Shown here: positions 370 through 62,100 of the stretch, piece by piece | Position numbering within the stretch: position 1 is the first letter of the stretch | Layout: every line of letters starts with the position of its first letter | Origin: Microvirga tunisiensis | Lineage (GTDB): Bacteria; Pseudomonadota; Alphaproteobacteria; Rhizobiales; Beijerinckiaceae | Reading direction: 5' to 3' | NCBI RefSeq assembly: GCF_009296175.1 | Contig: NZ_VOSK01000002.1 | Location: forward strand, 1 to 64,000 | Length of the DNA: 64,000 nt | Notes under the pieces: model-generated | Told to the model about the DNA's origin: nothing | What the model saw: the letters and a program-made list of their open reading frames with translations, nothing else | Databases searched by the model: none | Program-made: the position numbers and the translations under genes

Positions 370-483
370 TACTAGCTGTTTGGTAGCGGAACGTTGTTGG
401 GATCAGGTGCGTTACGCCATTGAGGAGTATACTTGGCGCTTTGACGGCCTGCGACGCCGAGCTTCTCACCGCAGGAGGACGTG

Positions 484-1470
484 ATGCACTCCCTTCATCC
501 GCAAGCCCGCACCACCCCCGCTGTCCGCCAGGAGATCGCCCGCTCGAGAGAGCCCACCGGCGTGCTGGCCCAGCGCTTCAGCGTGAGCACCGAGACCATC
601 CGCAAGTGGCGCAAGCGCGGAGCCCAGGACTGCCAGGACCATTCCAGCCGGCCGCACAAGCTGCCCTGGAAAGCCACGGACGAGGAGCGCGCCATCGTCT
701 GCGTCCTGCGCCAGGCCACCGGCTTTCCGCTCGACGATCTGACCTTCATCGTCAGCCATTTCCTGCCGCATCTCAACCGCGATGCCGTCTACCGCATCCT
801 CAAGGCCGAGGGTCTGGGACGATTGCCCCCGGCGCAGCAGCGCCAGCGCCGGAGCGGCACGTTCAAGGACTATGATCTCGGCTTCGTGCACATCGACATC
901 AAGCACCTGCCCAAGCTGCAGACCGCCGACGGGGAGCGCCGCAAGCGCTATTTGTATGTGGCCATCGACCGCTGCTCGCGCTGGGTGCACCTGGCCGTCA
1001 AGGACGATGAGCTGGCCACCAGCGCGGTCGCCTTCCTGAAAGAGGCGGTGCGCGCCTTCCCCTTCAAGGTCACGCACGTCCTGACGGATCGAGGATCCTG
1101 CTTCACGGCGGATGCTTTCGAGGACGCCTGCCGCCAGCTGAAGCTGGAGCACCGCAAGACCAAGCCCTACACGCCGCAGACCAATGGTCTCGTGGAGCGC
1201 TTCAACGGGCGGGTGCAGCGCGAGGTGCTGGGCATCACCATCTACAGCCATCGGGACCTCGAGACGCTGCTCAAGGGCTTCAATCAGGCCTATAACAGAA
1301 GACGTCAACGCGTGCTCAAGGGGCGATCCCCGGATGAGGTTGTGCGAAGCCGCCTGGCTGCCGAGCCGAAGCTCGCCAACCGCCGCTACAAGCCACCCGA
1401 TGCAGACGCGTTGCCGCCAGCCCTCCAGGTCATCGCTCATGCCAAGGAGGTCTCGCATCCAGACAGATAG
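484..1470 (+). CDS. IS481-family transposase
   Basis: This protein of 328 residues is a DDE recombinase that would move its own insertion sequence. An N-terminal helix-turn-helix (about residues 10-50, LAQRFSVSTETIRKWRKRG) is followed by an rve integrase core. The acidic triad is visible as D138 (HIDIK), D202 (LTDRG) and E238 (LVERFNGR), giving the 35-residue D-E spacing of the family. GTG 481 lies only 2 bases from AGGAGG (473-478), whereas ATG 484 lies 5 bases away, so ATG 484 is preferred. The frame is uninterrupted and may be active. I could not define convincing terminal inverted repeats. It sits just after the decayed IS701-like end and 114 bases before the leuA leader peptide. Confidence 0.93.
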   Translation: MHSLHPQARTTPAVRQEIARSREPTGVLAQRFSVSTETIRKWRKRGAQDCQDHSSRPHKLPWKATDEERAIVCVLRQATGFPLDDLTFIVSHFLPHLNRDAVYRILKAEGLGRLPPAQQRQRRSGTFKDYDLGFVHIDIKHLPKLQTADGERRKRYLYVAIDRCSRWVHLAVKDDELATSAVAFLKEAVRAFPFKVTHVLTDRGSCFTADAFEDACRQLKLEHRKTKPYTPQTNGLVERFNGRVQREVLGITIYSHRDLETLLKGFNQAYNRRRQRVLKGRSPDEVVRSRLAAEPKLANRRYKPPDADALPPALQVIAHAKEVSHPDR

Positions 1471-51020: not shown

Positions 51021-52301
51021 ATGGAGATCTGGGTTCTCTTCGGCGTCTTCACGCTCCTGCTCATCATCGGCACGCCGGTTGCGTTCTGTCTGGGCATCGC
51101 ATCGCTGGCGACCGTGCTCTACATGCAGCTGCCGCCCCTCGTGGTGTTCCAGCAGATCAACTCCGGCATGAACGCCTTCGCCATGATGGCGATCCCGTTC
51201 TTCATCTATGCGGGCGATCTGATGATGCGCGGCGGCATCGCCGATCGCCTGATCCGGCTGGCTGCGGGTTTCGTCGGCCATCTGCGTGGCGGTCTTGGGC
51301 AGGTGAACGTGGTGGCCTCCACGCTCTTCGGCGGCATTTCCGGCTCGGCCATTGCGGATGCTTCGGCCATCGGCGGCATCATGATCCCGCAGATGGAAAA
51401 GCGGGGCTACGCCAAGGATTATAGCGTCAACGTGACGGTGAACGCGGCGATCATCGCGCTTTTGATCCCGCCGTCCCACAACATGATCATCTATTCGATC
51501 GCGGCCGGCGGCACGATCTCGGTGGCGGACCTGTTCACGGCCGGTGTCGTTCCGGGCTTCCTTTTGGCTGCCGCTCTCATGATCACCGCCTATGTGGTGG
51601 CCGTGCGCCGCGGGTATCCTGCCGATCCGTTTCCCGGTTTCCGGATGCTGGCCTATTTCTTCGTTTCGGCCGTGCCCGGCATCCTGCTGATCTTCATCAT
51701 CTTCGGCGGCGTTCGCTCAGGGATCTTCACGGCAACGGAGAGTTCGTGCATCGCCGTCGTCTATGCCTTGCTCGTCACGCTCTTCGTGTATCGCGAGATG
51801 AACTGGGAGAGCTTCGTCGAGGCGACGCTCGGGGCCGTGCGCACCACGGCCATGGTCCTGCTCGTCATCGGGACCGCCAGCGCCTTCGGCTGGCTCATGG
51901 CCTTCCTGCAGGTTCCGCAGGCGACCATCGCCCTCATGAAGACCGTGTCCGACAACCCCATCGTCGTGCTGCTGCTCATCAACGTGATCCTGCTGGTGCT
52001 CGGCACCTTCATGGACATGGCGCCGATGATCATCATCTGCACGCCGATCTTCCTGCCCGTGATCAAGGCCTTCGGCATCGACCCGGTTCATTTCGGCGTG
52101 ATCCTGATCCTCAATGCGGGCATCGGCCTCAACACGCCGCCGGTGGGCTCGGTGCTCTTCGTCGGTTGCGCGGTCGGAAAGATCACCATCGGCGAGGCCA
52201 TGAAGACCATCTGGCCGTTCCTGGGCGCAAGCATCGCCGTGCTGCTGCTCGTCACCTACATTCCCGGCCTGTCGCTCTGGCTTCCGGCCCTGTTCCGCTG
52301 A
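51021..52301 (+). CDS. TRAP transporter large permease (DctM family)
   Basis: This 426-residue integral membrane protein has about twelve helices and is the transporting subunit driven by a sodium or proton gradient. Family marks are IPFFIYAGDLMMRGGIADRL, GGISGSAIADASAIGGIMIP and the C-terminal GIGLNTPPVGSVLFVGCAVG. It starts 4 bases after the small permease. Together the three genes form a complete TRAP system for an organic acid, probably a uronate. Confidence 0.94.
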   Translation: MEIWVLFGVFTLLLIIGTPVAFCLGIASLATVLYMQLPPLVVFQQINSGMNAFAMMAIPFFIYAGDLMMRGGIADRLIRLAAGFVGHLRGGLGQVNVVASTLFGGISGSAIADASAIGGIMIPQMEKRGYAKDYSVNVTVNAAIIALLIPPSHNMIIYSIAAGGTISVADLFTAGVVPGFLLAAALMITAYVVAVRRGYPADPFPGFRMLAYFFVSAVPGILLIFIIFGGVRSGIFTATESSCIAVVYALLVTLFVYREMNWESFVEATLGAVRTTAMVLLVIGTASAFGWLMAFLQVPQATIALMKTVSDNPIVVLLLINVILLVLGTFMDMAPMIIICTPIFLPVIKAFGIDPVHFGVILILNAGIGLNTPPVGSVLFVGCAVGKITIGEAMKTIWPFLGASIAVLLLVTYIPGLSLWLPALFR

Positions 52302-52325
52302 TCCATCGCATTCAAAGAGGTAATG

Positions 52326-53162
52326 ATGACCATCGAAATCCGGCAGGTTTGCCATCCTGAGGCCGTGCGCCATTTCAGTTCGGCCGAACTGCGCCGCCAT
52401 TTCCTGATCGAGACGCTGTTCGTACCTGGCGAGGTCAAGCTGACCTACAGCCATATCGACCGGCTGGTAGTCGGCGGCGTGACGCCGACCTCCGGGGCGA
52501 TCAAGCTGGAATCGCACAAGCAGATCGGCTCGCCGAACTTCCTCGACCAAAGGGAACTCGGCGTCGTCAACCTCGGCGGGCCCGGGCGCGTCCACACGGA
52601 TGGAGAGGTTCACAATCTTGAGCCTCGTGATGCTCTCTATGTCGCCATGGGCACGAAGGAGGTCCGCTTCGAGAGCCTCGACGCAGGCACTCCAGCGAAG
52701 TTCTACCTCGTCAGCACGCCGGCGCATGCCCGCTTCGAGACGGTGAAGATCGGCCTTGACCGGGCCCGTCGGGTCGATCTCGGCGATGCCGCGAACGGAA
52801 ACGTCCGCACGATCTTCCAGATGATTCATCCGGAGGTGTGCCGCTCCGCTCAGCTCGTTCTCGGCATGACGCAGCTGAAGCCCGGCAGCATGTGGAACAC
52901 CATGCCGGCTCACCTGCACGATCGCCGCTCCGAGGTCTATGTCTACTTCGACATGCAGCCCGATACTCGCGTCTTCCACTTCATGGGCGAGCCGGACGAG
53001 ACGAAGCACCTCGTCGTCGGCAATGAGCAGGCGATCCTGTCTCCCGGCTGGTCGATCCATTCCGGCGTCGGCACCAGCAACTACACCTTCGTCTGGGCGA
53101 TGGGCGGCGACAACCAGGACTTCACGGACATGGACATGGTGCCCATGGACGCGCTGCGGTGA
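52326..53162 (+). CDS. kduI: 5-dehydro-4-deoxy-D-glucuronate isomerase
   Basis: KduI isomerises 4-deoxy-L-threo-5-hexosulose uronate to 3-deoxy-D-glycero-2,5-hexodiulosonate in pectin and alginate-type uronate breakdown. The 278-residue bicupin carries the zinc site in MPAHLHDRRSEVYVYFDM (His, His, Glu) with the last His in WSIHSGVGTSNY. TPTSGAIKLES and SPNFLDQRELGVVNLGGPG are also typical. ATG 52323 is an alternative; GAGG is too close to it. It lies 24 bases after the TRAP permease gene. Confidence 0.95.
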   Translation: MTIEIRQVCHPEAVRHFSSAELRRHFLIETLFVPGEVKLTYSHIDRLVVGGVTPTSGAIKLESHKQIGSPNFLDQRELGVVNLGGPGRVHTDGEVHNLEPRDALYVAMGTKEVRFESLDAGTPAKFYLVSTPAHARFETVKIGLDRARRVDLGDAANGNVRTIFQMIHPEVCRSAQLVLGMTQLKPGSMWNTMPAHLHDRRSEVYVYFDMQPDTRVFHFMGEPDETKHLVVGNEQAILSPGWSIHSGVGTSNYTFVWAMGGDNQDFTDMDMVPMDALR

Positions 53163-53172
53163 GGGGGTTGCG

Positions 53173-53931
53173 ATGACATTCTCTCTCGATCTGAGCGGCA
53201 AGACCGCCATTGTGACCGGGGCTAATACGGGGCTCGGTCAGGCGATCGCGGTGGCGCTGGCGCAAGCCGGTGCTGCCATCGTCGCCGTCGGGCGCTCATC
53301 CATGGAAGAGACCGAGCGCCTGTGCCGCGACACGGGTGCAGCTTTTCATGCCGTGCAGGCGGATCTGTCGAGCCTGGAGCCGATCGAACGGATCGTCAGC
53401 GAGGCTGCATCGGTCAGCGGCCGGATCGACATTCTGGTCAACAATGCCGGAATCATCCGCCGCGCGGATGCCATCGCGTTCACGGAAAAGGATTGGGACG
53501 ACGTGATGAACGTCAACCTCAAGTCCACCTTCTTCCTGTCTCAGGCCGTGGCGCGCACCATGCTGGCGGATGAGGGCGGCGGCAAGATCATCAACATCGC
53601 CTCGCTCCTGTCCTTCCAGGGAGGCATCCGCATTCCCTCCTACACGGCGAGCAAGAGCGGTCTTGCCGGCCTCACGCGATTGCTGGCCTGCGAGTGGGCC
53701 GCCAAGGGCATCAATGTGAATGCCATCGCGCCCGGCTACTTCGTGACCAACAACACCGAGGCGCTCCGCAACGACCCGAAGCGAAGCAGCGAAATTCTTG
53801 GACGAATCCCGGCCGGTCGCTGGGGCGATCCGACAGACCTCGGCGGCGCTGCCGTCTTCCTGGCATCACCTGCGGCGAACTACATCCACGGCGTCGTCCT
53901 GCCGGTCGACGGTGGATGGCTTGCCCGCTGA
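53173..53931 (+). CDS. kduD: 2-deoxy-D-gluconate 3-dehydrogenase
   Basis: KduD is an NAD(P)-dependent SDR that reduces the KduI product to 2-keto-3-deoxygluconate. The 252-residue protein has the nucleotide loop TGANTGLGQAIAVALAQAGA, NNAGIIRRADA, a catalytic Ser in IASLLSFQGG, YTASKSG as YxxxK, and the family end VFLASPAANYIHGVVLPVDG. GAGGGGG precedes ATG 53173, 10 bases after kduI. Nothing in the window encodes the next enzymes (KDG kinase and KDPG aldolase). Confidence 0.94.
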   Translation: MTFSLDLSGKTAIVTGANTGLGQAIAVALAQAGAAIVAVGRSSMEETERLCRDTGAAFHAVQADLSSLEPIERIVSEAASVSGRIDILVNNAGIIRRADAIAFTEKDWDDVMNVNLKSTFFLSQAVARTMLADEGGGKIINIASLLSFQGGIRIPSYTASKSGLAGLTRLLACEWAAKGINVNAIAPGYFVTNNTEALRNDPKRSSEILGRIPAGRWGDPTDLGGAAVFLASPAANYIHGVVLPVDGGWLAR

Positions 53932-53949
53932 AATCTTTCCGGAGGAACC

Positions 53950-54288
53950 ATGAACCGTATCAATCAGCCTTTCGCCTTTGACAGCAACATCGACTGGGAG
54001 CCCGCAGGCGAGGGCGTCCGCCGCAAAATCCTCACCTACAATTCTGAGGTGATGATGGTGCGTGTGGCCTTCCAGGCTGGAGCCGTGGGTACCCCTCACT
54101 CGCATCCCCATATCCAGTGCAGCCTCGTCGAGGCCGGTGTCTTCGACGTGACCATTGCCGGTCGTACCGAACGTCTCAAGCAGGGCGACAGCTTCCTCGT
54201 CCCACCGAATGCCGTCCATGGGGCCGTTGCCATCGAGGCAGGAGTGCTGCTCGATGTCTTCACTCCCATGCGCGAAGACTTCGTCTGA
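53950..54288 (+). CDS. kdgF: KdgF-type cupin, unsaturated uronate lineariser
   Basis: This small cupin of 112 residues is matched by eye to KdgF, which opens 4,5-unsaturated uronate monomers to the linear keto acid used by KduI. The metal site is in GTPHSHPHIQCSLVEAG (His-His-Gln type), with a late His in PPNAVHGAVAIEAGVLLDVF. VRRKILTYNSEVMMVRVAF and the ending TPMREDF are characteristic. GGAGG lies before the ATG, 18 bases after kduD. It completes a kduI-kduD-kdgF set, so the imported substrate is probably an unsaturated uronate or short oligouronide. Confidence 0.87.
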   Translation: MNRINQPFAFDSNIDWEPAGEGVRRKILTYNSEVMMVRVAFQAGAVGTPHSHPHIQCSLVEAGVFDVTIAGRTERLKQGDSFLVPPNAVHGAVAIEAGVLLDVFTPMREDFV

Positions 54289-54568: not shown

Positions 54569-54593
54569 GGAACTCTGACCCTTGAAATGCGTT
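54569..54593 (+). promoter_or_regulatory. EcfG-type (general stress response) promoter
   Basis: GGAAC (54569-54573), 16 bases, then CGTT (54590-54593) matches the GGAAC-N16/17-CGTT consensus of EcfG sigma-factor promoters in alphaproteobacteria. It lies 105 bases before the poly-HAMP kinase start in a 409-base intergenic region (54289-54697). A CCCAGG/CCTGGG hairpin (54657-54677) lies between. The match is exact; activity is inferred. Confidence 0.6.
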
Positions 54594-54697: not shown

Positions 54698-57600
54698 ATG
54701 TCACAAGTAGAAACCGCCACTTCGCAGCTTGATTCCAAGCTGCTTCTCAAGACATTGCGTGCCTTCAAAAAAGGTGACTTCTCCGTCCGTCTGCCGTCCG
54801 ATCTGACAGGCATCGATGGCGAGATCGCCGAAGCTTTCAACGATATTGCAGATCTCAACCACGGCCTCGCACAGGAGCTGGAGCGCGTCGCCAAGGTCGT
54901 CGGCAAAGAGGGGCGGATCGAGGAGCGCGGGCGGCTGGCAGGCGCGACCGGATGCTGGAGCGAGTGCGTCGACTCCGTCAACGCCATGATCGGCGACATC
55001 GTCCAGCCGACCATCGAGGTGGCCCGCGTGATCGGCGCCGTGGCGAAGGGCGACCTGAGCCAGACGATCGACCTCGCGACGGACGGACGGCCCCTGCGCG
55101 GCGAGTTCCTGCGCATCGGCAAGGTCGTGAACACCATGGTGGGGCAGCTCGGCAGCTTCGCCTCTGAGGTGACTCGCGTGGCGCGCGAGGTGGGTTCCGA
55201 AGGCAAGCTCGGTGGGCAGGCGAAGGTCAAGGGCGTTGCCGGAACCTGGAAGGACCTGACCGAGAACGTGAACCTGATGGCCGCCAATCTGACCGGCCAG
55301 GTCCGTAACATCGCGGAGGTCACGACGGCGGTTGCGAACGGCGACTTGTCCAAGAAGATTACTGTCGATGTGAAGGGTGAAATCCTTGAGCTCAAGGATA
55401 CCATCAACACGATGGTGGATCAGCTCAACTCCTTCGCCTCTGAGGTGACGCGCGTTGCGAAGGAAGTGGGCTCCGAGGGCAAGCTCGGCGGACAGGCGCA
55501 GGTCGAGGGAGTCGGCGGCGTCTGGAAGGACCTCACCGACAACGTCAACATGATGGCGGCCAACCTGACCGGTCAGGTGCGTAACATTGCGGAAGTCACC
55601 ACGGCAGTCGCCCGGGGCGATCTGTCGAAGAAGATCACCGTCGATGTGAAGGGCGAGATTCTGGCTCTCAAGTCGACCATCAACACGATGGTGGATCAGC
55701 TCAACTCCTTCGCCTCCGAGGTGACGCGCGTTGCGAAGGAAGTGGGCTCCGAGGGCAAGCTCGGCGGACAGGCGCAGGTCGAGGGAGTCGGCGGTGTCTG
55801 GCGCGACCTGACTGAGAATGTGAACATGATGGGCTCGAACCTCACCGCGCAGGTTCGTAACATTGCGGACGTGACGACAGCGGTCGCCAACGGCGATCTC
55901 TCCAAGAAGATCACCGTGGAGGTGCGCGGCGAAATCCTTGAGCTCAAGAACACCATCAACACGATGGTGGATCAGCTCAACTCCTTCGCCTCTGAGGTGA
56001 CGCGCGTTGCGAAGGAAGTGGGCTCCGAGGGCAAGCTCGGTGGTCAAGCCCAGGTGCGTGGCGTCGCCGGAACCTGGAAGGATCTGACCGACAATGTGAA
56101 CCTCATGGCGGCCAACCTGACCGGCCAGGTGCGTAACATCGCCGAGGTCACGACAGCGGTCGCCAATGGCGATCTGTCCAAGAAGATCACGGTGGAAGTG
56201 CGCGGTGAGATCCTCGAGCTGAAATCAACCATCAACACCATGGTGGACCAGCTGAACTCCTTCGCAGGCGAGGTGACGCGCGTGGCGCGTGAGGTGGGCA
56301 CCGAGGGCAAGCTCGGCGGACAGGCGCAGGTGCGCGGCGTCGGCGGCGTCTGGAAGGATCTCACCGACAACGTCAACATGATGGCGGCCAACCTGACGGG
56401 TCAGGTCCGTAACATCGCCGAAGTCACGACCGCGGTCGCGAACGGCGATCTCTCGAAGAAGATTACCGTCGATGTGCGTGGCGAGATCCTGGAGCTGAAA
56501 TCGACCATCAACACCATGGTGGACCAGCTCAACTCCTTCGCCTCGGAAGTGACGCGCGTGGCGCGCGAAGTGGGCATCGAGGGCAAGCTCGGCGGACAGG
56601 CGCAGGTGCGCGGCGTGGCCGGTACCTGGAAGGACCTGACCGACAACGTCAACATGATGGCGAACAATCTCACCGGTCAGGTGCGAGGCATCGCCAGCGT
56701 CGTGACCGCGGTCGCCGAGGGCGATCTCAAGCGCAAGCTGATCGTGGATGCCAAGGGCGAAATCGCGGCACTCGCCGAGACCATCAACGAGATGATCGAT
56801 ACCCTCGCAACCTTCGCCGATCAGGTGACGAACGTTGCCCGCGAAGTGGGTGTGGAAGGCAAGCTCGGCGGTCAGGCGAGGGTGCCTGGTGCGGCCGGCC
56901 TGTGGCGCGATCTCACGGACAACGTGAACCAGCTCGCCGCCAATCTGACCACCCAGGTGCGAGCCATCGCCGACGTGGCCACCGCCGTGACCAAGGGCGA
57001 TCTGACCCGGTCGATTTCGGTGGAAGCCTCGGGCGAGCTGGCGTCGCTCAAGGACAACGTCAACGAGATGATCCGCAACTTGCGCGATACGACGCTCAAG
57101 AATGCGGAGCAGGATTGGCTGAAGACCAACCTCGCCAAGTTCACCCGCATGCTGCAGGGCGAGCGCGATCTCACCACCGTGTCCAACATGATCCTGTCGG
57201 AGATCGCCCCGCTGGTGAATGCCCAGCAGGGCGTCTTCTATACAGTGGGGAGCGATGGCAGCGAGCCCATGTTGGAGATGGTCGCCTCCTATGCCTTTAC
57301 GGAGAGAAAGCATCTCAACAACCGCTTCCGCCTCCGCGAAGGACTTGTTGGCCAGGTCGCCTACGAGAGAAAGCGGATTCTCCTCACCAACGTGCCGGGT
57401 GACTACATCACCATCAGTTCGGCTCTCGGAGAGGCCCCGCCACTCAACATCATCGTGCTTCCGGTCCTGTTCGAGCAGGAGGTAAAGGCGGTGATCGAAC
57501 TTGCCTCGTTCAGTCGGTTCTCCGAGACGCACCAATCCTTCCTCGAGCAGCTCACGGAATCGATCGGTATCGTTCTGAACACCATTGCCGCGAACATGCG

Positions 57601-59995
57601 GACAGAAGGCCTTCTGAAGCAGTCCCAGCTTCTGACCACCGAGCTGCAGAGCCAGCAGGAAGAGCTGAGGAACACCAACGACCGGCTGGAGCAGCAGGCT
57701 GCAACCCTGCGTCAGTCGGAAGAGCTCCTGCGGCAACAGCAGGAAGCACTTCAGAAGACGAACGAGGAGCTTGAGGACAAGGCGCGGCTGCTCGAACTCC
57801 AGAAGAGAGAAGTCGAGGCGAAGAACCACGAAGTCTCCGTCGCAAAGACGGCCCTGGAGGAGAAGGCCGAGCAGCTTTCGCTGACATCGCGCTACAAGTC
57901 GCAGTTCCTGGCCAATATGAGCCACGAGTTGAGGACGCCGCTGAACTCGCTCCTGATCCTGTCGAAGCTCTTGACCGAGAATTCCGACGGCAATCTGACC
58001 GACAAGCAGAGGGAGTTCGCCAAGACCATCCATGCGGCGGGCTCGGACCTGCTTTCTCTCATCAACGATATTCTGGACCTGTCCAAGATCGAGTCCGGCA
58101 CCGTCAGCATGGAAGTGTCGAGCGTCGGCTTCAAGGATCTCGTCGAGAATATGGACCGGACCTTCCGCCAGATTGCAGAGGAAAGAAAGCTTGACTTCCA
58201 CGTGGAGGTCGATCCGAAACTGCCGCTGGCGATCAGGACGGATTCGAAGCGGTTGCAGCAGGTGCTGCGCAACCTGCTCTCGAATGCCTTCAAGTTCACG
58301 GAACGCGGAGGCGTGACGCTTCAGATCGGTTCGGCCGAGGGAACGCCGCTGCGGGCCGGCAGCCAGTGGATCGCCATGTCGGTGACCGATACCGGCATCG
58401 GCATTCCGGAGGAAAAACAACGCATCATCTTCGAGGCCTTCCAGCAGGCGGATGGCACCACGAGCCGGAAGTATGGCGGGACCGGTCTCGGCCTGTCGAT
58501 CAGCCGTGAAATCGCTCGTCTGCTCGGCGGTGAGATCGTGGTGTCGAGCACGCCGGGAAGCGGCTCGACCTTCACGCTCTTCGTGCCTGTCGAACCGCCT
58601 GCAAGCCACGGGGCTGCCGGAGCAGGATCCTCCGTGCGGTCAAACGGCGACGGCTCAGGGCAGTACGGCACGTCCGACGACTCGACGGGAACGATGATCC
58701 GTCAGCCATCGGCCGCGATGGCTCTCTCGGCCTCCCTGGATGATCGGCATGCGATCACCACCGGAGATCGGGTCGTGCTCATCATCGAGGACGATGCGAT
58801 GTTCGCCTCGGTGTTGCTGGAGCTCGCCCGTGAGGAGGGCTTCAGGGGACTGATCGCCATGGACGGCGCTTCGGCGCTTGCCCTCGCGCATCGCTACAAG
58901 CCACATGCGATTACTCTCGATATCGGGCTTCCCGATATGGACGGCTGGGCGCTCCTGGACTTGTTGAAGCACGATCCGCGAACCCGCCATGTGCCGATCC
59001 ATGTGATCTCGGTCGATGACCAGAAGAAGCGCGGTCTCAGGGCAGGTGCCTTCGGCTTCCTGGAGAAGCCCGTTGACCGAGAGGCTCTCATGGGAGCGCT
59101 CAATCGCACGAAGGAGTTCATCGACCGACCCGTGAAGAAGCTGCTTCTCGTCGAGGATGACGACAATCAACGCATGAGCCTGTCCGAACTCATGAAAAGC
59201 GAACAGGTTGACGTGACGGCGGTGGGAACGGCCGAGAGTGCGCTTGAGGTCATCCAGGCACGGCACTTCGACTGCGCCATTGTCGACCTGGGCCTGCCGG
59301 ATCTTCCGGGAGCCGAACTCATCGAGCGCATCCGCAAGACGAAGGGCGGTGAGGAGCTGCCGATCGTCATCTATACCGGACAGGACTTGGCGAAGTCCGA
59401 GGAGCGTCGACTGCAGGGCATCGCTGCAACGCTCATCGTCAAAGGTGAGGGCTCGTCCGAGCGCCTTCTCAACGACACGGCTCTGTTCCTGCACCGGGCG
59501 ATCAGCGCCATTCCCGAAGAGAAGCACATCATTGTCGAAAGGCGGGCCGACGGCTCACTCGATGGCCGGAAGGTGCTGATCGTCGACGACGACATGCGCA
59601 ACATCTTTTCGCTGACGAGCGCGCTCGAGCAGCACGGAATTTCGGTCGTCTTCGCCGAAAACGGGTTGGAAGGCATCGAGAAGCTCCAGGCCAACCCGGA
59701 TGTCGATGTGGCCTTGGTCGACATCATGATGCCGGGGATGGACGGCTATGAGACCATGCGGGAAATCCGGAACATCCCGCGTTATCATGACCTTCCTCTG
59801 GTCGCGGTGACTGCAAAGGCCATGAAGGGCGATCGGGAGAAGTGCCTCGAAGCAGGTGCGACCGACTACGTGTCGAAACCTGTCGATGTGGATCAACTTC
59901 TGGCTGTCTTGCGCGTTCAACTTAGTCGGAGCACATATATCCCAGACGGGAGAATTGCTCCCAATGGTGCGGCAGAGACCGGGTTGAACTCATGA
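54698..59995 (+). CDS. Soluble poly-HAMP hybrid histidine kinase
   Basis: This very large sensor kinase of 1765 residues has no TM segment or signal peptide. An array of HAMP-type units fills residues 1-800: two divergent ones, then seven 92-residue units marked [11 protein letters not shown] domain (about 830-965), a Gln/Glu-rich coiled coil (about 970-1065), HisKA with H1076 ([15 protein letters not shown]) and a HATPase ([32 protein letters not shown]) follow. Three receivers carry D1408, D1530 and D1675. The layout recalls fungal group III (Nik1-type) kinases, where the HAMP array reads osmotic or antifungal stress. It is preceded by an EcfG-type promoter and overlaps the next kinase gene by 4 bases. 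Confidence 0.93.
55199..57130 (+). repeat. Tandem array of seven 276-bp HAMP-coding units
   Basis: Units begin with the EGKLGGQ codons at 55199, 55475, 55751, 56027, 56303, 56579 and 56855, exactly 276 bases (92 codons) apart. Units 1-5 are nearly identical at the DNA level over stretches such as the one encoding [18 protein letters not shown]. Units 6 and 7 are more diverged. The near-identity suggests recent duplication or gene conversion within the gene. This is coding DNA, not a CRISPR or satellite. Confidence 0.92.
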
Positions 59996-62100
59996 CGGAC
60001 GACGTAAGGCGAGGGGAGTCGGGCCCGAACCTGGATGATTTTCATCTGGTTTCGGCCCGTCCGCAGTCGGATCCGATCCCAGCCAAGATTTTGGTGGTCG
60101 ATGACGACCCGAGAAATCTTATTGCCGTCGAGGAGGTACTCCGGTCTCCTGGTGTGGAAATCGTGACTGCGGATTCCGGCGAGGGGGCTCTGCGCCACGT
60201 TCTGAAGGATGACTTCGCTGTCATTCTTCTCGACGTGCAGATGCCGCGGCTCGACGGATATGAAGTTGCCAGTCTGATCAGGAATCGGCCGCGTTCATCA
60301 CGCGTGCCGATTCTGTTTCTGACGGCTTTCAACAAGGACGATATGCACGTCTTCAAGGGATACTCGGCGGGCGCTGTCGACTACGTCTTCAAACCCATCG
60401 AGCCCTTGATCCTCAGATCCAAGGTCGATATCTTCGTCGATCTTTACCGAAAGACGGAGGAGATCCGCCGGCAGGCAGAGCAGGAGCGCCGCCTGCTGAT
60501 GGACAACCTTCACGTCCGCGGCGAGAAATTGAAGGCGGAGCAGGCCCTGCGGCGCCGCGAGGAACATCAGTCGATCGTTCTGCAATCGCTTCCGATTGCG
60601 CTTAATACAGCCTCCGTTGAGGAGGATCATCGACAGCTCCATTTCACCAACGAGAGTATCGAGCGCATTACGGGGTTTCGGCCGGAGGCTTTCCTTGAGC
60701 GCTCTGATTTCTGGTCCTCTCGGATCAATCCGGATGACCGGGAGCGCGTCCTGGCCCAATTGAAGCGATTGGAGGAAGAGGGTTCCGTCAATCTCGAGTA
60801 TCGCTGGCGTTGCGCCGACGGTGTCGAAAGGCATTTTCTCGATCAGACGGTCATGATGAAGGATGAGGGCGGTCATCCGCGCGAATTCTTCGGGATGTGG
60901 TTTGATATTACCGAGAGCAAGCAAATGGAGCAAAATCTGCTCCACGCCAGCAAGCTTGAGGCGGTTGGCCGCCTCACGGGTGGGATCGCGCATGATTTCA
61001 ATAACATGCTGAGTGTCGTGATCGGCAATCTCGATCTCTTGAAGAAATCCATTCAGGGCAATGAGAAGGCCGAGCGACGGGTGCGCATGGCCTTGGAGAG
61101 TGCTCAGCATTGCGCCGATCTCACCTATCGGCTTCTGACCTTCTCACGGCGCCAAGCCCTGCAGGTCTCAACGATCGATGTCACGAGCCTGATGCCGAGC
61201 CTTCTGGAGCTGATGCGTAGGACGCTTGGAGAGCATATCAACGCGGACTTCCGTTCTGGCGACGGTATATGGCCGATCCAGGTCGACCGGGCTCAGTTCG
61301 AGGCGGCCCTCCTAAATCTTGCGGTCAATGCCCGTGATGCAATGCCCGATGGCGGCGATCTGACAATCAGTGTCGAGAACCAAGCGGTGGAGGAGGGGAG
61401 ATCCGCGCCCGGCGGTGAGTTCGTCGTGATCTCCGTGAGCGATACGGGAATCGGCATGCCGCCTGAGGTGTTGGAGAAGGTCTTCGAGCCGTTCTTCACC
61501 ACCAAGGAAAGCGGAAAAGGCACCGGCTTGGGCCTGAGCATGGTGTACGGCTTCGTCCAGCAGTGCCATGGCCATGTGGAAGTTGAGAGCGCGCCCAATG
61601 CAGGCACGACGATCCGCATCTTCCTTCCTCGCTCTCATGAGGCTGCAGAAAGTGCGCCGGATGACCGGTCGGCGGTTGCCCACCCTTTCGGTGAGGGGCG
61701 TATGGTGCTTGTGGTTGAAGACAATCCGGCTGTACGCCAAGTGGCGCTCTCGACCCTTCATTCTCTCGGCTTCAAGGTGATGGAGGCTGAGACTGGTGAT
61801 GAAGCCGCTCGCCTCCTGAAGATGAAGAAAGATATCAAACTCGTTCTTTCCGATGTCAGGATGCCGGGAGAACTCAGCGGCATAGACTTGGCCCGTCTCA
61901 TTCAGCGAGAGCAGCCGGACATCCAGGTGCTTCTGACGACAGGCTATTTTGACGGGGAAGACAAGCTCGAGGATCTCAATCTTCTCTACAAGCCCTATCG
62001 GGCAACCGACCTTGCAGAAAAGATTCAATCACTGATGAGGTCCCCGCAAACTGTCGAATTCAAAACCGCGACGATCCATCAAGCCGCTGCCGTTGCATGA
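59992..62100 (+). CDS. Receiver-PAS-histidine kinase-receiver hybrid
   Basis: This cytoplasmic hybrid kinase of 702 residues opens with a receiver domain (about 30-150, phospho-site D81 in [11 protein letters not shown]). A helix, a PAS domain (about 200-310, [28 protein letters not shown]), HisKA with H334 ([15 protein letters not shown]) and a HATPase ([45 protein letters not shown]) follow. A C-terminal receiver carries D621 ([12 protein letters not shown]). GGIAHDFNN is the H-box of the group typified by rhizobial and Caulobacter hybrid kinases. Its ATG overlaps the poly-HAMP kinase stop (ATGA), so the two are translationally coupled. No output regulator is encoded here. Confidence 0.92.

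Follow-up and report, generated by a model that had tools for sequence, protein, structure and literature searches.

A predicted cytoplasmic poly-HAMP hybrid kinase of Microvirga with an old repeat array and a conserved EcfG-type upstream site

How a HAMP rod that lacks a membrane anchor senses anything is unsettled. Here we report a computational analysis of a 64,000-nucleotide stretch of Microvirga tunisiensis DNA (assembly GCF_009296175.1, contig NZ_VOSK01000002.1, positions 1 to 64,000 of the forward strand; hereafter referred to as the window), which carries a gene for a hybrid histidine kinase whose N-terminal part is a tandem HAMP array. We describe the layout of the protein, the age and number of its repeat units across the genus, and an upstream site that suggests transcription with the general stress sigma factor EcfG. 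Individual genomes and loci are given by our own G and L numbers where they have to be told apart.

Domain architecture of the kinase

The poly-HAMP hybrid histidine kinase gene occupies positions 54698..59995 on the + strand and encodes 1765 residues, as called from its open reading frame and from Pfam matches to HAMP, HAMP_2, GAF_2, HisKA, HATPase_c and three stretches of Response_reg. All of its parts lie on the + strand. A diverged N-terminal HAMP segment (about residues 13–144; 54734..55129), recognised from the sequence, weak Pfam matches, a structure model and a match to the solved chain 9trk, precedes seven regular units of 92 residues and 276 bases each (55130..57061), which were delimited by repeat spacing and Pfam, each unit probably representing two HAMPs. 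The array is followed by a GAF domain (residues 822–960; 57161..57577; Pfam), by HisKA and HATPase_c (residues 1067–1299; 57896..58594; Pfam), in which motif reading places the phospho-acceptor motif SHELRTP from residue 1075, and by three receiver domains (about residues 1355–1745; 58760..59932; Pfam), each with its phospho-acceptor aspartate by eye.

Hydropathy analysis, run without a dedicated predictor, revealed no transmembrane-like stretch in the 1765 residues; the highest 19-residue Kyte–Doolittle mean, 1.69, falls within the first receiver domain. Among 82 open reading frames from the genus and a broader set, four have a 19-residue mean above 1.9. The peaks of three of these (L042, L041 and L080) resemble the GAF-region stretch of the window kinase, and that of the fourth (L032) lies in a receiver-like stretch close to the end of the frame. 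The protein combines all the features of a soluble poly-HAMP (group III-like) hybrid kinase, namely N-terminal concatenated HAMPs, the absence of a transmembrane segment, and HisKA, HATPase_c and receiver domains that bear their phosphosites. The original prediction, made from the sequence alone, is upheld in this respect: it had placed the reading frame here, had named GAF, kinase and three receiver domains behind the array, had taken the protein to be soluble and had likened its layout to that of fungal Nik1-type kinases.

Two further profile matches over the array could be taken for DNA-binding domains. SpoIIID scores 34.4 bits over the whole protein against a cut-off of 27, with no individual stretch above the cut-off, and HTH_6 stays under its own cut-off. 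We set the DNA-binding reading aside and take both as probable side matches of HAMP helices. No NCBIfam model matched the kinase above its cut-off among the best 25 of 159 matches.

Anatomy of the HAMP array

The seven unit copies begin at 55130 and follow one another at a spacing of exactly 276 bases, and a tandem repeat finder likewise returned a period of 276 with 5.8 copies. In the three units tested, each 92-residue unit consists of a half with a GDL motif and a recognised HAMP match, plus a diverged half. Nine halves carry GDL or GDF, and eight further halves, placed by alignment, are diverged, which would bring the array to about 17 HAMPs. The N-terminal segment gave weak, sub-cut-off Pfam HAMP matches for two of its three pieces and none for the third, and was modelled as helix–connector–helix with a predicted local distance difference test (pLDDT) score of about 75–95. 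In an AlphaFold model of residues 11–328 (318 residues), connectors interrupt the helices about every 46 residues, which would make each 92-residue unit a pair of HAMPs some 46 residues long. Some observations weigh against this division: the diverged half alone gave no Pfam HAMP match in any of the three units tested, an hhalign comparison of the two unit halves (a single comparison) returned a probability of 5% with an E value of 0.0079, and confidence in the model drops past residue 140 or so (mean pLDDT 62.6). Given the low model confidence in that region and the low hhalign probability, we infer, rather than observe, two HAMPs per unit. The original prediction of seven HAMP-type units was therefore right about the regular copies and an undercount of the HAMPs, since it omitted the diverged stretch in front and the apparent doubling within each unit.

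The solved chains 9trk and 9trj align with kinase residues 8–291 and 8–199, respectively. A Foldseek search with the model placed three Aer2 poly-HAMP structures at the top, with a probability of 1.00 but E values of 0.05–0.19; 9trk was absent from the best 50 of the 187 matches. A DExG sequence at the connector–AS2 junction marks membrane-coupled HAMPs, as described in PMC3570549, and its absence characterizes poly-HAMPs; a motif search found no DExG in the array.

Unit number and age of the array

The kinase gene has an orthologue in 39 of 48 Microvirga genomes, including that of the window, and nine genomes lack one. Among the 33 unbroken or nearly unbroken arrays, 28 have nine units, two have eight (G017 and G039), two have seven (G031 and the window) and one (G041) is interrupted by N. 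Six further arrays are cut or broken (G015, G007, G030, G038, G021 and G002). The breaks at or near the array are contig ends in G007, G021 and G002, N runs in G015, G038 and G041, and a frame break in G030. The original prediction held that unit number may vary between strains; across these genomes, one per species, nine is the usual count and the number changes occasionally.

A mosaic comparison with nine-unit relatives places the apparent loss in the window at units 4 and 5 (55958..56509, +), the exact junction depending on the reference. Read against G034, the window array runs through units 1–4, then through 169 bases best matched by units 7–8, and then through units 7–9; with G026 or G019 as the reference, the jump falls in unit 4 or early unit 5, and with the more distant G042 the path breaks into seven pieces. 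G034 itself tracks G026 over its full nine units, with no switch. Moreover, the upstream genes stand 555 bases closer in the window than in G034. Apparently, the window array has been shortened by two units relative to its nine-unit relatives.

Comparison of the units with one another showed less likeness than the five nearly identical copies that had been claimed. Units 1–5 share 79–86% of their bases pairwise, 57–70% at third codon positions and 83–92% of their residues, and units 6 and 7 are more diverged (73–80% and 60–62% protein identity, respectively). Where units 1–5 share a residue, they use the same codon in 57–77% of cases, versus 48–50% expected from the codon usage of the gene, and some of the unit likeness therefore exceeds codon bias. 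We then compared all 252 units of 28 nine-unit genomes, a set without G041 (whose array has an N run and irregular spacing), the six cut or broken arrays and the four that have seven or eight units. For 232 units, the best match in a foreign genome occupies the same array position, and for 46 the nearest relative is a unit of the same genome. In a tree of 88 units from 10 of the 39 genomes, in which the window units carried labels 1–4, none, 8 and 9 preset from earlier comparisons, position labels change 15 times (minimum 8, shuffled mean 63) and genome labels 74 times. Support in the tree is uneven, and the units of G043 fall mostly outside the positional groups. Because the units group by position and not by genome, we regard the array as an old repeat whose units, on these comparisons, are not newly copied. 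It is not frozen, since the unit number occasionally changes and 46 of the 252 units have their nearest relative within the same genome.

Relatives beyond the genus were compared as well. Array motif counts range from 2 to 16 among 43 loci with a recognised array, the low values including cut or diverged arrays; in the 18 loci of the window's family the lowest count is 2, for a locus at a contig edge, and the highest 12. The best 60 of 224 Rhizobium plasmid records (the query's own among them) do not differ by the length of a unit: 58 match near end-to-end in one piece, one in two pieces and one from base 285. Walking the array unit by unit returned zero for 15 of the 43 loci, where either the anchor fell beyond the array or the pattern proved too stringent; these contribute motif counts only, and not to the 184 units of the cross-phylum set. 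In the 18 arrays of that set, the best foreign match of the last unit is a last position in 16 and that of the last-but-one unit is its own place in 15, whereas inner units find their counterparts among inner units, at varying positions. In addition, the nearest relative of 67 of the 184 units sits within the same array, and inner units therefore seem to undergo slow exchange.

Two other accounts of the array have to be weighed against an old repeat that lost two units in the window. The original prediction favoured recent tandem expansion or ongoing homogenisation, which would have made the units alike and the copy number variable between strains. The seven- and eight-unit arrays, the units nearest to one of their own genome or array in the genus and cross-phylum sets, the stray units of G043 and the excess of synonymous agreement all lean that way, as does a 366-base exact repeat two units apart in G031 (L155). 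Nevertheless, the closest units share only 79–86% of their bases, the great majority match their own position in other genomes, the tree follows position far more closely than genome, and the unit number is constant in the Rhizobium records examined. Unit-by-unit orthology across species, which had been named as an argument against recent dynamics, largely holds, the tree that had been proposed as a test of gene conversion groups the units by position, and the window array looks shortened rather than expanded. We consider this account quite improbable, and on the strength of positional orthology we rejected recent duplication as the main origin of the array. A seven-unit count produced by assembly collapse of a true nine-unit gene is a stronger contender, yet still the less probable reading. 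The window genome is assembled in 1022 contigs with 8.78% contamination, related assemblies break within or near the array, and the window array contains an 89-base exact repeat at two-unit spacing. Against collapse, this repeat is short relative to common assembly word sizes, a search of the rest of the window assembly turned up no additional unit, the single-contig genome G031 likewise has seven units, reached through a different loss (as compared with G045), and three genomes of other genera in the family that are assembled in one to three contigs (G121, G131 and G200) have motif counts of 7 or 8.

Within G031, the 366-base repeat is suggestive of local conversion or recent duplication at that one locus.

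A conserved EcfG-type promoter site

An EcfG-type promoter site, GGAAC-N16-CGTT, recognised by pattern match and by its conservation in the genus, lies at 54569..54593 on the + strand and ends 105 bases before the start codon of the kinase gene. A scan for sigma-70 promoters upstream of the gene found none. The strict pattern (GGAAC-N16/17-CGTT), searched on both strands of 39 genus loci (1.06 Mb of strand-bases), occurs 29 times: 28 sites lie upstream of the kinase gene on its strand and one lies elsewhere. Three of these loci (G007, G021 and G002) break off inside the array, short of the upstream region, and the strict site is present in 28 of the other 36. In 30 of the 39 loci an intact N-terminus was recognised (the other nine were omitted for lack of one), and the 400 bases upstream of it contain the strict form in 24 and a loose form in 28. 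In 27 of these 30, a site of at least the loose form stands 127–132 bases upstream, and in two of the remaining three (G047 and G020) GAAAC stands where GGAAC is expected. Across the 27 sites, the spacer is 40% identical and the 5′ flank 35%, and the two motif bases on which the sites had not been selected recur as well (the C of GGAAC in 27/27, the C of CGTT in 24/27). Among other genera of the family, 6 of the 18 loci examined carry a strict site upstream, and these 18 loci contain 14 strict sites in total.

The conserved site suggests that the kinase gene is under general stress response control in the genus. Several observations tell against this. Eight of the 36 genus loci that include upstream sequence lack the strict form, the loci are related and are not independent samples, and GGAA and GTT do not vary among the 27 sites because the sites were selected on them. 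The 20 bases 3′ of those sites are 71% identical, and conservation thus extends past the two hexamers. Outside Microvirga, the site appeared in only 2 of 31 loci (Phenylobacterium L046 and Caulobacter L053) and was found neither in the Rhizobium loci nor in the one Methylobacterium locus, the start being misplaced in some of the 31. Furthermore, the window contains four other strict matches on its two strands, three of them within long same-strand open reading frames, and a lone strict match therefore means little; the loose pattern GGAA-N18-20-GTT occurs 34 times in the window, compared with a mean of 14.9 and a maximum of 27 in 100 shuffles. The site might accordingly be another kind of element, or an EcfG promoter that is not used, and its distance to the start exceeds the first 100 bases within which the EcfG motif is enriched in Sphingomonas (PMC6599016), just as the conserved bases directly after it would fit such an element. 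We judge this unlikely, however, since the pattern is the published EcfG motif (GGAAC-N17-20-GTT; PMC6599016), the genus loci contain the strict pattern at just one other place, the site keeps a fixed distance to the start while its spacer varies, and the strict site recurs upstream in other genera of the family.

At window 388–1470, one of the other strict matches precedes, by 68 bases, a 329-residue open reading frame that by eye resembles an insertion sequence-element transposase. NepR-type anti-sigma proteins in the window genome also speak for EcfG control. This family matches the genome above its curated cut-off in 11 places (14 in all), which seems many, and some of these matches may be foreign because the assembly is 8.78% contaminated. 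PMC6599016 also mentions one EcfG-dependent orphan hybrid kinase, #1746, the architecture of which was not seen in that source. Among the papers listed by our literature searches we recognised none joining a poly-HAMP kinase of this type with EcfG, and priority is not established.

Downstream kinase and neighbouring genes

A second hybrid kinase gene, identified from its open reading frame and Pfam as REC-PAS-HisKA-HATPase-REC, lies at 59992..62100 on the + strand and shares an ATGA overlap with the poly-HAMP kinase gene. Such a gene follows the poly-HAMP kinase in all 39 genus loci, 25 of them at the overlapping distance of the window. Among alphaproteobacterial loci outside Microvirga in which the C-terminal part was found, 19 of 20 have a partner match at most 0.9 kb downstream; these matches cover at least half the length at 35–60% identity, and some may be other kinases. 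The genes 5′ of the poly-HAMP kinase are common to only part of the genus. At window 51021–54288 these comprise a DctM-type transporter, a KduI/IolB family protein, a short-chain dehydrogenase (by eye) and a cupin, and they resemble a uronate uptake and catabolism cluster. We rejected these four as partners, a KduI match being found upstream in only 10 of the 38 other genus loci.

Proposed mechanism

Taken together, the locus probably encodes a cytoplasmic, group III-like hybrid kinase in which a HAMP rod leads through GAF to the kinase core and on to a partner relay, within an EcfG-transcribed operon and with an old array shortened in this assembly. The long HAMP rod, expected to form a parallel dimer, would connect to the GAF domain and the kinase core. 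By analogy with Aer2, an altered state of the rod or of GAF may change kinase activity through alternating HAMP conformers, and the phosphoryl group would pass to the three receivers of the kinase itself and from there to the partner hybrid kinase encoded immediately downstream. Transcription of the operon with EcfG, for which the site is present, would imply induction under stress. The repeat array would be an old one, kept at nine units in most of the genus and reduced by two in this assembly.

Given the likely EcfG regulon, osmotic or drying stress is a plausible signal, albeit one that we hold tentatively. The conserved EcfG-type site in this way lends indirect support to the link with osmotic or desiccation stress at which the original prediction had guessed. 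More speculatively, and with little expectation that it will prove correct, the two-gene, EcfG-controlled cytoplasmic poly-HAMP phosphorelay could be a stress-induced intracellular sensor of alphaproteobacteria and a functional counterpart of Nik1, in which selection sets the unit number (nine in Microvirga) and rare losses, like the one in the window's species, shift the signalling range.

Comparison with known systems

The window kinase is of an already described kind, since related kinases of Myxococcus, Sorangium and Azospirillum have been published. In myxobacteria, poly-HAMP hybrid kinases without a membrane anchor have been described from Myxococcus and Sorangium, and the group III name was applied to them (PMC7643160). 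AskA and AskB of Myxococcus xanthus and Amb07 of Sorangium share with the window kinase the absence of a transmembrane segment, an extended N-terminal poly-HAMP, a kinase and several receivers, and their arrays, too, are reported to give SpoIIID-like and HTH_6 matches (PMC7643160). They differ in having tested roles, in sporulation and in the ambruticin response, and are likened here by description. Published soluble poly-HAMP proteins (Aer2, AskA and AskB) qualify the remark in the original prediction that bacterial HAMP domains normally follow a transmembrane helix, which overlooked them.

From Azospirillum, the hybrid kinases AZOLI_p30171 and AZL_c01470 have been described as carrying nine HAMPs in tandem together with a GAF domain (PMC4618731). 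The same-strain records NC_013857.1 and NC_016623.1 contain relatives 73.0% and 66.7% identical over 98–99% of the query, which we infer to be these loci. The source calls the Azospirillum kinases orphan, whereas the window kinase has a partner kinase gene downstream. The Aer2 poly-HAMP (3lnr) provides the top Foldseek matches of the array model, and its HAMPs, like those of the array, lack DExG; Aer2 differs as a chemoreceptor with a heme PAS domain (PMC3570549). PDB entries 9trk and 9trj (molecule name: histidine kinase,Gcn4p) are close sequence matches to the N-terminus of the window kinase and are at most 76% identical to any locus compared; a literature search yielded neither a paper nor a source organism for 9trk.

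For the fungal group III kinases, one source uses the term fungal-specific (PMC11253588), which speaks against extending the name to this protein, and reports that the counterpart TcsC is activated by the antifungal fludioxonil, lethally for the fungus. Nik1 and TcsC, likened here by description only, share with the window kinase a poly-HAMP array without a membrane anchor, a kinase and a receiver; the window kinase has a GAF domain and three receivers. Fungal group III members are not known to carry GAF. What the present analysis adds to these systems, of modest interest, is a stress-type promoter site, whose conservation supplies a regulatory context for the members in the genus, and a natural series of orthologues with seven, eight and nine units, ready for testing the effect of unit number.

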